DNA of 64,000 bases from Meiothermus ruber DSM 1279. Lineage in GTDB: Bacteria > Deinococcota > Deinococci > Deinococcales > Thermaceae. Positions within the stretch are counted from its first letter, which is position 1. Each line of letters begins with the position of its first letter. The stretch lies in NCBI RefSeq assembly GCF_000024425.1, contig NC_013946.1:1798001-1862000 (forward strand), read 5' to 3'. Shown piece after piece: positions 57,803-62,967 of this stretch. The notes below the pieces were generated by a model. It was not told where the DNA came from. It saw nothing but the letters and a program-made list of their open reading frames with translations, and made no database searches. The position numbers were made by a program, and so were the translations under genes.

Positions 57803-58075
57803 GTGGAAACGCTGCGTGTATCCGGCAAGTCACGTCCCAACTCAGTGGCCGGCGCGATCGCTGCGCTATTGCGCTCCCAGAGTGAGGTTGAGGTGCAGGC
57901 CATCGGCCCCGAGGCGGTTAACCAGGCGGTCAAGGCCATCGCAATTGCCAGGGGTTACATCGCCCCTGACAACCTCGATTTGATAGTAAAACCGGCTTTT
58001 GTTAAGCTAGAGCTCGAGAGCGAAGAGCGCACTGCACTTCGCTTCACCGTACGCAGTCAACCCTTGCAACCGTAG
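57803..58075 (+). CDS. stage V sporulation protein S (SpoVS) family protein
   Basis: 90 residues. METLRVSGKSRPNSVAGAIAALLR and the KAIAIARGYIAPDNLDLIVKPAF block are typical of the SpoVS/Alba-like fold. Thermus relatives are known and the host does not sporulate, so the role is not sporulation; nucleic-acid binding is possible (fold-based inference). GTG 57803 has AGGAGG at 57793-57798. Long leader from a strong promoter. Confidence 0.92.
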   Translation: METLRVSGKSRPNSVAGAIAALLRSQSEVEVQAIGPEAVNQAVKAIAIARGYIAPDNLDLIVKPAFVKLELESEERTALRFTVRSQPLQP

Positions 58076-58204
58076 CCCTCAACTCGATGAACCCAGCCTT
58101 CCAACCGATGCTTGGGTGGGTTGCGGTAGCAGACCGTTAGCAAGTAACCCAAGTCTCAGAGAGCCCATAGGGAATCTGATACCTTGTACGTATAGGAGGG
58201 AGGA

Positions 58205-58879
58205 ATGACCATAACGTTCGTACTGATGATTGCGGTTTTTGTAGCCACGCTGTTCATACAGTTCTGGCTCCAGCGCACCTATGCCCGTTATAGCCGGGTC
58301 GCCAACAGCCGGGGGGTGACGGGAGAACAGGTTGCCCGCGCCATCCTGGATGCTTACGGCTTGCATAACGTTCGGGTCGAGATGGTACCAGGGGCCCTGA
58401 CCGACCACTACGACCCCATCGCCAAGGCTGTGCGTCTGTCGGAGCCTAACTTTCACTCGCCTTCAGCGGCGGCGCTGGCCGTGGCCGCCCACGAGGTGGG
58501 GCATGCTATCCAGGACGCCAAAAGCTACGCCTGGTTGCGGGTGCGGCACAGCATCCTGCCGGTTGCCAATATCGGCAGCATGTTTGGCCCCTGGATTTTC
58601 ATTCTGGGTATGTTCATGGGCGCAACTGGGCTGATGAACATTGGTATCTGGCTCTTTGCAGCGGCCGCGCTGTTCCAGCTCGTAACCCTGCCGGTGGAGT
58701 TCGACGCCTCCAACCGGGCCCTGAACATCCTCAAAAAGATGAACTTCCTCGACAAAAGCGAGATGGATGGCGCCCGGGCCGTTCTGACGGCGGCGGCCAT
58801 GACCTACGTGGCGGCTCTAGCCAACTCGCTGGCTACCATTTTGCACTATGTAGCGATCATGACCTCGCAGCGCGAGTAG
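58205..58879 (+). CDS. zinc-dependent membrane peptidase (YugP/COG2738 type)
   Basis: 224 residues. N-terminal membrane helix (residues 4-22), then the catalytic zinc motif HEVGH (about residues 97-101, in AVAAHEVGHAIQDA), two further membrane helices (about 115-160), and a conserved EFDASNRAL segment with the third ligand. Function of this widespread family is not established. AGGAGGGAGG lies 2-11 nt before the ATG. Confidence 0.92.
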   Translation: MTITFVLMIAVFVATLFIQFWLQRTYARYSRVANSRGVTGEQVARAILDAYGLHNVRVEMVPGALTDHYDPIAKAVRLSEPNFHSPSAAALAVAAHEVGHAIQDAKSYAWLRVRHSILPVANIGSMFGPWIFILGMFMGATGLMNIGIWLFAAAALFQLVTLPVEFDASNRALNILKKMNFLDKSEMDGARAVLTAAAMTYVAALANSLATILHYVAIMTSQRE

Positions 58880-58889
58880 GCTGCTCCAG

Positions 58890-58923
58890 GCGAAAAGGCC
58901 CCGCGTACGCGGGGCCTTTTCGC
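58890..58923. terminator. bidirectional terminator between yugP-type gene and cysS
   Basis: 15-bp perfect palindromic stem GCGAAAAGGCCCCGC/GCGGGGCCTTTTCGC with loop GTAC. T-rich on both strands, so it serves both converging genes. Confidence 0.9.
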
Positions 58924-58924
58924 T

Positions 58925-60370
<1,446 letters not shown>

Positions 60371-60411
60371 CCGGATCTCCTAAGCGACAAACAGCTTGCA
60401 GGCAGCAGGCC

Positions 60412-60459
60412 TAAGAAAAACGCCGGGCTGGTGGCACACGGCACACCATGACCCCGGCG
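60412..60459 (-). terminator. attenuator terminator in cysS leader
   Basis: Minus strand: outer stem CGCCGGG/CCCGGCG (60453-60459, 60421-60427), inner stem TGGTG/CACCA, then GTTTTTCTT. It stands about 50 nt before cysS. A competing hairpin GATCCC-GCC-GGGGTC (60450-60464) uses the same 5' arm. Confidence 0.85.
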
Positions 60460-60470
60460 GGATCGTCTGC

Positions 60471-60491
60471 TTAACATCGGAGAGCAAACAT
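60471..60491 (-). CDS. putative cysS leader peptide MFALRC
   Basis: Six codons then TAA: ATG TTT GCT CTC CGA TGT. The only Cys codon (60474-60476) directly precedes the stop. The ATG is 6 nt after TATACT, the layout used by leaderless genes throughout the window, so it should be translated without a ribosome site. It ends 11 nt before the terminator stem. Role by inference: sensing charged tRNA-Cys to control cysS readthrough. Confidence 0.6.
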   Translation of the reverse strand: MFALRC

Positions 60492-60497
60492 AGCTGG

Positions 60498-60503
60498 AGT
60501 ATA
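60498..60503 (-). promoter_or_regulatory. -10 box of cysS leader
   Basis: TATACT on the minus strand, 6 nt before the leader ATG at 60491. No good -35. Confidence 0.65.
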
Positions 60504-60508
60504 GCACC

Positions 60509-60946
60509 TCAAGCCGCGGTGCAGCGCTCCTTGAGGCCGCGCAGTAGATCGTCGACGTTTTCTTGCATGAGCTTTTTGACCAGTTTTTGCAGCAAGCCGC
60601 CAAAGATGGGGATGTTGAGTTCGTACTCGAGCTTCAGCACCGCCCGGGTGCCCTCCCCCTCGGGCAGGAAGGTCCAGGAGCCCCGGTAGACATCAAAGTC
60701 GCCCTCTTTGCTGTCGAACTCGTTGCGCAGCTCGGCGTCGAACCAGCGCTCCTCCTCGATCCAGTGCACCTTTTTGCCCATCGCCACGGCCACGAAGCGG
60801 GTGCGCGAGGTGCTGCCGTGGTCTTCCAGCACCTCGAGGGTCTCCACGTCCTTGAGGTAGGGCTTAAGGCCGGCCAGGTCGCGCGCGGCGGCATAGACTT
60901 CCTTGGGAGGTTTGGGGATGTAGAGTTCGGAGATCACTTCTGGCAT
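60509..60946 (-). CDS. SRPBCC (polyketide cyclase/START-like) family protein
   Basis: 145 residues. Helix-grip fold pattern: ISELYIPKPPKEVYAAARDLAGLKPYLKDVETLEVLE at the N terminus and SWTFLPEGEGTRAVLKLEYELN ... LLQKLVKKLMQENVDDLLRGLKE at the C terminus. Likely binds a lipid or hydrophobic ligand, or acts in coenzyme Q/carotenoid-type roles as in CoxG/YfjG relatives. ATG 60946 lies 6 nt after TAAACT; an IS abuts this promoter. Confidence 0.85.
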   Translation of the reverse strand: MPEVISELYIPKPPKEVYAAARDLAGLKPYLKDVETLEVLEDHGSTSRTRFVAVAMGKKVHWIEEERWFDAELRNEFDSKEGDFDVYRGSWTFLPEGEGTRAVLKLEYELNIPIFGGLLQKLVKKLMQENVDDLLRGLKERCTAA

Positions 60947-60952
60947 AGCGCT

Positions 60953-60958
60953 AGTTTA
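60953..60958 (-). promoter_or_regulatory. -10 box of SRPBCC gene, at IS border
   Basis: TAAACT on the minus strand, 6 nt before ATG 60946. The IS5-type target duplication TTA (60956-60958) forms half of this box. Confidence 0.55.
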
Positions 60959-60994
60959 GAAACTGTTGTAAAAGTCCGCAATACTGGAAGGGTG

Positions 60995-61378
60995 ATGCCT
61001 ACACGTAGATTTTACCCCAGCGACCTCTCGGACGCAGAGTGGGCCTTGCTGGAACCCTTGATCCCCGCCCCCAAGCCCGGCGGCCGACCCGCCAAGGTGC
61101 CCAGAAGGGAAATAGTGAACGCCATACTCTACGTCCTGGAAAACGGCATCAAGTGGCGGGCTATGCCCCATGACCTGCCCCACTGGTCTACGGTCTACCA
61201 CTACTTCCGCAAGTGGCAGAAGGAGGGGGTATGGGAGAGAGCCGTCCAAACCCTGGCCCGCCGGGACCGGGAACGAGAAGGGAGGTATGCTTCCCCCAGC
61301 GCCTTGGTCCTAGACAGCCAGTCCGTCAAGACCACGGAAAAAGGGGGCCCCGGGGAAACGACGGGGCAAAGAAAGTAA
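60995..61378 (+). CDS. IS5-type transposase, first frame
   Basis: 127 residues. N-terminal part of an IS5 (DUF4096-type) transposase: SDAEWALLEPLIPAPKPGGRPAKVPRREIVNAILYVLENGIKWRAMP and the first catalytic Asp in LVLDSQSVKTTEKGG. It ends shortly after an A5G5 run (61338-61347), where a -1 shift continues into the second frame to give one full transposase. Alternative start GTG 60992. Confidence 0.9.
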   Translation: MPTRRFYPSDLSDAEWALLEPLIPAPKPGGRPAKVPRREIVNAILYVLENGIKWRAMPHDLPHWSTVYHYFRKWQKEGVWERAVQTLARRDREREGRYASPSALVLDSQSVKTTEKGGPGETTGQRK

Positions 61379-61836
61379 AAGGGAGGAAACGGCAGATTCT
61401 GACGGACACCGGGGGGCGTCTTTTGAAGGCCTTTGTCCATCCGGCTAACGAGCACGACAAGAGGGGTGGGCAGGCCTTGCTTTTGGGGATGGACCTTTCC
61501 TTGTGGCCCCGGGTGCGCAAGCTTTTCGTGGACTGGGGGTACCGGGGTCTTGCGGGACTGGCTTCCTCCCTGGGGTTGGAGATGGAGGTGGTGGCTCGTC
61601 CCTACGCGGGGGTGCGAGGGGTCTGGGTGCGGGAAGGAGAGGAGACGCCGGAGATTCCGCGGGAGAGTGGGTTCAAGCCTTTGCCCAAGCGGTGGGTGGT
61701 GGAGCGGACCTTTGCCTGGCTGGGGCGGAACCGACGGTTGGGGAAGGATTACGAGTACCATCCTGAGGCAACGGAGGCCTGGATGTACTTGGGCATGATA
61801 CGCTTACTGGTGAAGCGGCTGGCCAGGGCCGCGTAG
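61213..61836 (+). CDS. IS5-type transposase, second frame
   Basis: Only the part after the slip site (about 61339 onward) is the transposase C terminus: RGNDGAKKVKGRKRQIL, second catalytic Asp in FVDWGYRG and third, Glu, in VVERTFAWLGRNRRL. It is read after a -1 shift at AAAAAGGGGG. An ATG at 61213 is in this frame but makes no sense as a gene start. Confidence 0.85.
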   Translation: MAEGGGMGESRPNPGPPGPGTRREVCFPQRLGPRQPVRQDHGKRGPRGNDGAKKVKGRKRQILTDTGGRLLKAFVHPANEHDKRGGQALLLGMDLSLWPRVRKLFVDWGYRGLAGLASSLGLEMEVVARPYAGVRGVWVREGEETPEIPRESGFKPLPKRWVVERTFAWLGRNRRLGKDYEYHPEATEAWMYLGMIRLLVKRLARAA

Positions 61837-61894
61837 CCTCTCGTGGAGGGCTTTTACGACAGCCTCTTATATGAAATCCTTTTGATTCATTCCC

Positions 61895-62455
61895 CTAACA
61901 TCCCCCCGGCCACCAGTGAAATAGGGTGTAGCTCTGGATAAGCGCGGGCTGGGTTTGTAGGTAAGCGCACCGGGCTTCCACCTTGGCCCACAGCTCCTCT
62001 TCATCCTGCACCTGCCCATTGGCCACGACCGCGTCGATGAGCCCCCAGACTCGTTCTACCGGCTGCAACTCGGGCGAGTAGGATGGCAGATAACACAGCC
62101 CCAAGCCCCTGGCTGGCTCCACCCGCCCCGAGGTGTGCCAGCCAGCCTGATCCAGCACCACCAGTACCAGCTTGCCCGCCCCCGCCCCCCGTAGCCGGGC
62201 AAAGGCCTCCAACACCAACTGGAACCCCTCCACCGAGACCGAGGGCAGCAGCCAGTACTCGCTTTCCCCCGTACCCGGCCTTATGAAGGCGTACACATAC
62301 AGCCAGCGATAGCGGGGCCGCTCCTGCGCTAGCGGCGTCCTCCCTCGCAAGGCCCATACCCGTCGGCGGATGGGCTTCAGCCCTATTCGGTGCTCATCAA
62401 AGCCCCACACCTCCAACTCCAGTTCAGGAAAGAGCAGCCTGAACAGGAAAACCAT
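61895..62455 (-). CDS. IS630-type transposase, DDE domain frame
   Basis: 186 residues. DDE_3 catalytic domain: first Asp in VWGFDEHRIGLKP, second in LVVLDQAGWHTS, Glu in YSPELQPVERVWGLI. Joined to the upstream frame by a shift at an A7 run (T7 at 62466-62472) or by reinitiation at TGATG, where this ATG overlaps the stop of the first frame by 1 nt. Confidence 0.88.
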   Translation of the reverse strand: MVFLFRLLFPELELEVWGFDEHRIGLKPIRRRVWALRGRTPLAQERPRYRWLYVYAFIRPGTGESEYWLLPSVSVEGFQLVLEAFARLRGAGAGKLVLVVLDQAGWHTSGRVEPARGLGLCYLPSYSPELQPVERVWGLIDAVVANGQVQDEEELWAKVEARCAYLQTQPALIQSYTLFHWWPGGC

Positions 62456-62967
62456 CAGAAAGAGCTTTTTTTGAAAGCCTCCTGCCGCTTCGCATCCGCC
62501 TCCCGGTGGCGCGGCCGGGGGCGCAGCGGGGCCAGGCCCAGGCGACGCATCCAGTACCAGGCCCGCCGCCCATCCACCGGACGTCCCAGCCTTTCAGCCA
62601 GCCACTCCGCCGCGTGGCGTATGCTCCAAAGCCCGTCCCTGGGATGGGGCTGGAGGAGGGCCTGGCGGAAGGGTTCCTGGAGTTCGGGCGGTACGAGGGG
62701 GGCCCGGCCTTTGTTCTCGTGCCGCAGATTCTTCATAGGCAGGCCCTGATTGTAGCGGTGGATCACCTGACGCACCCAGCGATCGGTATAGCCCAGATTC
62801 CTGGCTACCTCGGGGATGCTCTGACCCCTGGCCAGCAGCCAGAGAGCGTGCCAGCGGGCGCGTTCGGTCTGGTCTTGGGACTCCCGGTAGAGGGCGTGGA
62901 GGTGATCCGGATGGTGTCGCAGTTGGAGTTCCAACCGGGGGCGGCGCTGATGTTGGGCCAGTTGCAT
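62455..62967 (-). CDS. IS630-type transposase, DNA-binding frame
   Basis: 170 residues. Helix-turn-helix region: ERARWHALWLLARGQSIPEVARNLGYTDRWVRQVIHRYNQG, followed by a second winged-helix unit (RDGLWSIRHAAEWLAERLG). The frame ends in EAFKKSSF, encoded by the A7 run, where it should join the catalytic frame. A TAAAAT box lies 6 nt before the ATG. Confidence 0.88.
   Translation of the reverse strand: MQLAQHQRRPRLELQLRHHPDHLHALYRESQDQTERARWHALWLLARGQSIPEVARNLGYTDRWVRQVIHRYNQGLPMKNLRHENKGRAPLVPPELQEPFRQALLQPHPRDGLWSIRHAAEWLAERLGRPVDGRRAWYWMRRLGLAPLRPRPRHREADAKRQEAFKKSSF

Follow-up and report, generated by a model that had tools for sequence, protein, structure and literature searches.

Leaderless transcripts are common in Deinococcota, and in 2014 de Groot and colleagues reportedly described 5′-AUG small ORFs in Deinococcus deserti, some of them predicted to encode leader peptides. 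In mycobacteria, leaderless short ORFs with runs of Cys codons act as cysteine-responsive attenuators (Canestrari et al., 2020, summarized in PMC9031893; first noted in PMC4633059). Rhodobacterales carry uORFC-8-2, a predicted cysS attenuator composed of a leader peptide with Cys codons and a terminator (PMC8632094). Leaderless leader peptides precede leuS, thrS, and trpS in Streptomyces lividans, and some of these are accompanied by terminators (PMC8079986). Here we describe a short leader upstream of cysS in Meiothermus ruber, which is very probably a leader-peptide attenuator that senses charged tRNA-Cys.

The window, a 64-kb stretch of M. ruber DNA, carries the controlled gene, cysS (cysteinyl-tRNA synthetase; Pfam tRNA-synt_1e, E = 1.9e-110), on the minus strand at 58925–60370; its nearest named relatives are those of Meiothermus sp. 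KatS3mg071 (99%) and M. taiwanensis (97%). All elements of the leader lie on the same strand. An extended −10 element, TGC-TATACT (60498–60506), adjoins the 3′ end of an SRPBCC (Polyketide_cyc) gene (60509–60946; stop codon 60511–60509). TATACT itself (60503–60498) is followed, after 6 nt, by the start codon (60491) of a six-codon, predicted leaderless ORF, ATG TTT GCT CTC CGA TGT TAA (60471–60491; MFALRC and stop), within which the CGA-TGT (Arg-Cys) pair, the proposed sensor site, occupies 60474–60479. A spacer of about 12 nt (60459–60470) leads from the stop codon to the arm of an intrinsic terminator, whose hairpin (60421–60459) is formed by CGCCGGG...CCCGGCG with an inner stem TGGTG...CACCA and is followed by the U-tract TTTTT (60416–60420). 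Counted from the start codon through the U-tract, the whole leader measures about 76 nt; a further 45 nt separate the U-tract from the cysS start at 60370, which is served by the ribosome-binding site AGGAGA (60381–60376). Nowhere else in the window do these three features, an extended −10 element, a short ORF spaced as for a leaderless start, and a terminator, occur together.

An earlier note on this DNA had described TATACT, the 6-nt interval, and the ORF with its terminal Cys codon ahead of cysS, and all of them are present at the minus-strand coordinates claimed. Its terminator is there too, with both stem and inner stem, except that the hairpin and U-tract end at 60416 and not at 60412. 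A second hairpin, GATCCC-GCC-GGGGTC (hairpin 2, 60450–60464), likewise exists in M. ruber and is a candidate antiterminator for the M. ruber group only. Missing from that account were the CGA before the Cys codon, an alternative hairpin, CGCCG:TGGTG, in the 5′ half of the terminator (60444–60459) that is mutually exclusive with it, a hairpin in the ORF (GUUUGCU:AGCAGAC, 60489–60483 with 60471–60465), and the spread of the leader through the phylum.

The SRPBCC gene ends 50 nt ahead of the hairpin on the same strand, and the hairpin might serve as the terminator of that gene only, with cysS transcribed from its own promoter and the short ORF incidental. We consider this extremely unlikely. The sole promoter-like site found precedes the terminator, and inspection of the M. 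ruber sequence by eye revealed no −10-like site between terminator and cysS. In addition, conservation extends to the ORF, its Cys codon, and its reading frame, all of which are retained in Marinithermaceae and in most Trueperaceae even where there is no terminator. Immediately upstream of the SRPBCC gene and the cysS unit are ORFs whose translations, judged by eye, resemble broken transposase genes (60563–61836, plus strand; 61895–62967, minus strand).

Conservation of the leader was assessed in the cysS upstream regions of 18 Meiothermus genomes, 2 Calidithermus genomes, and 2 from a third genus, making 22 Thermaceae outside Thermus. The full unit of promoter, Cys ORF, and terminator is kept in 19 of them, so its arrangement is not due to chance. 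The leader peptides comprise six or seven codons (MFALRC, MYFAPRC, MMFVPRC, MLLARRC, MWRAQRC, MVLMERC, and others), and all 19 end in CGA TGT and a stop codon (TAA in 13, TGA in 4, TAG in 2). Each, including that of M. ruber, has a single Cys codon at position 6 or 7, and none has a contiguous Cys cluster. CGATGTT is invariant, the 5′ half of the terminator is almost so, the outer stem GCCGGG:CCCGGC is identical in all 19, and the inner stem stays paired through a few changes. The distance from stop codon to stem is 12 nt in 17 homologues and 13 nt in the other two, a constancy that fits readout by ribosome position.

The unit is altered or gone in three Meiothermus genomes. Two have lost the Cys ORF (L012 and L014), and the third (L016) retains GTG...CAA TGT TAG, with no terminator detected. 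These three genomes constitute a natural experiment on the loss of control. In Thermus and a relative (L023–L049), a Cys leader ORF was found in none of 27 loci; cysS appears to be leaderless there, with a TATAAT-like element a few nucleotides before its start codon. The sequence upstream of cysS in this group is unrelated to its Meiothermus counterpart. Loss or alteration in three Meiothermus genomes, together with absence from Thermus, indicates that the unit is dispensable. Comparison of Meiothermus and Thermus leaders, as called for in the earlier note, bears out the frame, the Cys codon, and the terminator in 19 of 22 non-Thermus genomes; it does not bear out hairpin 2, which is broken or weak in several relatives, and Thermus lacks the unit.

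The wider distribution was examined with a rule blind to cysteine: the best −10 element upstream of cysS plus a start codon 4–9 nt away. None of the 111 genomes searched was recognizable as Deinococcus. Family names beyond those of named records are our reading of genome groups f1–f5. Among 76 non-Thermus Deinococcota cysS upstreams, 61 have a short ORF that is leaderless by this rule. The counts do not represent independent events, since the genomes share ancestry, although position, flanks, and peptide length do differ between families. All but one of the 61 ORFs contain Cys, which makes up 84 of their 782 codons (the long ORFs of the window have 0.75%), and CGA-TGT is present in frame in 50. 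When the same upstreams were shuffled with dinucleotides preserved, the averages fell to 11.6 ORFs, of which 4.4 had Cys and 0.05 had CGA-TGT; 60 cysS genes from other phyla yielded 20 ORFs, two with Cys and none with CGA-TGT. The −10 element lies 4–9 nt, mostly 6–7 nt, before the predicted start codon in the 61 genomes, and the TGn of an extended −10 is kept in 51. By eye, at least four more genomes that the rule overlooked carry such an ORF (L167, L180, L181, and L182). Judged from these sequences, a leader with a Cys ORF is common to Meiothermus and most other Deinococcota outside Thermus.

The form of the leader varies between families. The peptides MKRPARRC and MRPARRCRR are examples from Marinithermaceae; in other families RC or Cys runs are seen, as in MNFLQALISRCCCLYS and MNALLLCCCPRVRVA (a stop codon follows in all four examples). 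Cys clusters occur only in some leaders of f2, f3, and f5. An intrinsic terminator was not found in any of the 11 Marinithermaceae leaders or in most Trueperaceae leaders, which suggests that the sensing ORF predates the output device or is more stable than it.

The strongest evidence that the ORF is translated comes from the position of CGATGT. Every one of the 50 such hexamers that lie after the leaderless start and ahead of cysS keeps the reading frame of that start, at codons 5–34, which argues for translation from there and for a role of the pair as codons. This points to selection acting on the translation of CGA-TGT. Of 60 leaders, 58 use TGT as their first Cys codon, and in 47 CGA precedes that first Cys codon. 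When the preceding codon encodes Arg, it is CGA in 47 of 49 cases, compared with 14 of 128 for the other Arg codons of the same ORFs (Fisher p = 1e-27). CGA is rare in the long ORFs of the window (6.9% of Arg codons), TGT accounts for 26% of their Cys codons, and CGA-TGT does not occur in frame in any of them (0.16 expected). Leaders that lack CGA before the first Cys more often have adjacent Cys codons (7/13 versus 3/47 of those that have it; p = 4e-4).

The tRNA complement offers a reason why this pair might be slow to decode. M. ruber has 47 tRNA genes, with the Arg anticodons ACG, CCG, CCT, and TCT, and the same four were found in one Trueperaceae genome, so CGA must be read by tRNA-Arg(ACG) through inosine:A pairing. 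Reading of CGA in this way is inefficient (PMC3711424). TGT is read by a single tRNA-Cys (GCA). We infer that CGA-TGT is a sensitized stall site, at which one Cys codon can replace a run. A more far-reaching proposal, which we hold with slightly more doubt than belief, is that CGA-UGU is a dedicated hungry-codon sensor: the weak inosine-A pair in the P site would make a single Cys codon as sensitive as a Cys run, so that selection would have fixed the codon pair, rather than the peptide or an RNA structure, across the phylum.

The invariance of CGATGTT in Thermaceae, and the near invariance of the terminator 5′ half, could also be expected of a nucleic-acid signal, either an RNA motif or a protein site, in which case the ORF would be the by-product of an RNA regulatory element. 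The hexamer (60479–60474) furthermore holds an out-of-frame ATG, which in many homologues opens an overlapping frame into the terminator. A second ORF starting there was considered and rejected, as it closes after three or four codons in several homologues. A nucleic-acid signal is very improbable as the explanation for the hexamer, which keeps frame in all 50 cases, at distances of 4 to 33 codons from the start, while the flanking RNA is not conserved between families and the leaders without CGA-TGT have Cys runs instead. Nor did Rfam supply a match that would account for it. No T-box was detected in 58000–62500 even at an E value of 10; the one weak hit, to an SAH riboswitch (E = 2.7), lies mostly before the promoter and was discarded, and no other Rfam element was found.

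Among the searched genomes the leader element was found only at cysS; GCCGGGGTNATGGTGTGCC was likewise seen only there. Additional matches to the element elsewhere in the genomes proved not to be regulatory leaders (L204, for example, opens a HAD-like ORF in frame), and no comparable leader was found at Meiothermus thrS. Meiothermus trpS (L305–L319) is itself leaderless and starts 7 nt after TGn-TANNNT in most genomes, which supports that spacing as the mark of a leaderless start.

Taken together, the comparison strongly supports the proposal of the earlier note that a leaderless Cys leader peptide is coupled to an attenuating terminator (unit kept in 19/22 Thermaceae; Cys in 60/61 ORFs; CGATGT in frame in 50/50). 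As far as comparison of sequences can establish them, the ORF, its frame, its Cys specificity, the CGA-TGT pair, and the terminator are secure. In the mechanism that we envisage, the first transcribed base would be the A of the leader ATG or one adjoining it, and a 70S ribosome would load at the 5′ end without a Shine-Dalgarno sequence and translate the short peptide as far as CGA-TGT. When Cys-tRNA is scarce, the ribosome would wait with its P site on CGA and its A site on TGT, a state favored by the weak inosine-A pair at CGA and by G-U wobble at TGT. When Cys-tRNA is plentiful, it would proceed to the stop codon and come to lie almost flush with the terminator. In Meiothermus, the position of the ribosome would thus decide whether RNA polymerase stops at the hairpin or reads into cysS, and most likely cysS is switched on when cysteine-loaded tRNA is short. 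The output would be translational or factor-dependent in Marinithermaceae and most Trueperaceae, because their leaders have no terminator.

If the leading edge of the ribosome is taken to reach 15 nt beyond the P site, 5–6 nt of the spacer stay bare when the ribosome is at Cys and 2–3 nt when it is at the stop codon. It counts against the model that the two critical positions are only one codon apart. The earlier note had proposed that GATCCC:GGGGTC competes with the terminator as the switch, which the comparison does not support. The terminator hairpin is far more stable (−21.4 kcal/mol at 37°C and −13.6 at 60°C) than hairpin 2 (−6.5 and −2.9). Three pairs of hairpin 2 show two-sided changes among homologues, but covariation is within the range of the controls, and the free spacers of Meiothermus pair with the terminator arm no better than shuffled spacers do. 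With free-spacer energies and covariation that do not exceed controls, and with the helix broken or weak in several relatives, hairpin 2 was rejected as a general antiterminator. The CGCCG:TGGTG hairpin (−4.2 kcal/mol at 37°C and −1.3 at 60°C) keeps its pairs in at least 95% of homologues, and nothing ties it to ribosome position. The ORF hairpin, present in M. ruber, was set aside because the alignment contains no such conserved helix.

In four leaders with Cys runs and terminators (L144, L151, L152, and L153, from f2 and f3), the RNA freed by a ribosome at the first Cys codon could pair with the 5′ arm of the terminator at −12.8 to −15.9 kcal/mol. This RNA would be masked by a ribosome that has reached the stop codon (+0.3 to −7.0). 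Shuffled sequences did as well in 8, 9, and 25 of 300 trials for three of these leaders; L152 was not clearly better than its shuffles (59/300), and in a further f3 leader (L154) the pairing was no better than shuffles (216/300). A competing fold, as modeled here, can be proposed for the poly-Cys leaders of f3 and of one f2 genome.

In Meiothermus, G60452 and T60443 take no part in the pairing of the terminator, yet they are kept in 17 and 15 of 19 homologues, respectively. They fall within a pause-like element, GG..TGT/G (60442–60453), that appears to match the consensus of the elemental pause, G-11 G-10 T-3 G-2 Y-1 G+1, with G60452 at G-10 and T60443 at Y-1. A pause near these bases would set RNA polymerase just ahead of the ribosome.

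The regulation could also run with the other polarity. In many homologues, the ORF and spacer of untranslated RNA can pair with the 5′ half of the terminator, and a parked ribosome might mask RNA that otherwise holds the terminator off. Alternatively, the main output could be cysS translation, by reinitiation or by masking of the ribosome-binding site, as the lack of a terminator in all 11 Marinithermaceae leaders and most Trueperaceae leaders might suggest. We regard either version as unlikely, if somewhat less so than the alternatives discussed above, since the Meiothermus terminator is strong and invariant, the classical polarity fits the poly-Cys sister leaders, and uncharged tRNA is believed to raise the output of the predicted cysS attenuator of Rhodobacterales (PMC8632094). 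In four Marinithermaceae upstreams (L137–L140), GGCCGGGG just after the leader stop codon could pair with CCCC downstream, and in some of these the CCCC overlaps CUUUCC or CUUCC, which is able to pair with the cysS ribosome-binding site. A translational attenuator is possible in this set, judging by the predicted pairings.

Attenuation at a stalled leader ribosome, the reading that we prefer, would mean that a synthetase gene in Deinococcota is controlled by leaderless attenuation. The codon counts show that a regulatory leader is under selection for codon choice and not for the amino acid (CGA in 47/49 versus 14/128), and they suggest how one codon could stand in for several regulatory codons in a row. 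At about 76 nt, the leader would rank among the smallest attenuators and could be used to study how ribosome and polymerase are coupled in thermophiles.

The proposed logic, in which the choice of terminator or antiterminator depends on where the ribosome stands among the regulatory codons, is that of the enterobacterial trpL-type attenuators. trpL, however, has a Shine-Dalgarno start, a 14-codon peptide, and clear 1-2-3-4 segments, whereas the present leader spans about 76 nt and no conserved antiterminator was found in it. The small ORFs of D. deserti belong to the same phylum and follow the same leaderless logic. The S. lividans leaders resemble the Meiothermus locus, as predicted here, in placing a leaderless leader peptide before an aminoacyl-tRNA synthetase gene; they differ in their amino acids, their longer peptides, and their 1–3 cognate codons, and no CGA pair has been reported for them. 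With uORFC-8-2 the locus shares a predicted Cys-codon leader peptide and a terminator ahead of cysS. That alphaproteobacterial element has tandem Cys codons at positions 14–15, mostly UGC, inside a structured stem, whereas the Thermaceae leaders are predicted to be leaderless and have a single UGU, at codon 6 or 7 behind CGA, that does not lie in a conserved stem. The mycobacterial ORFs are alike in being short, with Cys codons, and in their leaderless start and cysteine-responsive control of what lies downstream (both predicted in our case). They use Cys runs, precede cysteine-metabolism operons, and are described as translational attenuators; here there is usually a single Cys after CGA, the gene is cysS, and in Meiothermus the device is an intrinsic terminator.

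No cysS leader from Deinococcota was found in the full texts searched, which did not take in the D. deserti study with its possibly related predictions. The novelty is narrower than the earlier note suggested, as other phyla have already yielded leader peptides of the leaderless kind, leaderless attenuators with Cys runs, and an attenuator at cysS. As far as could be checked, what is new is the phylum-wide single-Cys form with its invariant CGA-TGT pair, within a class of attenuator that is itself known.
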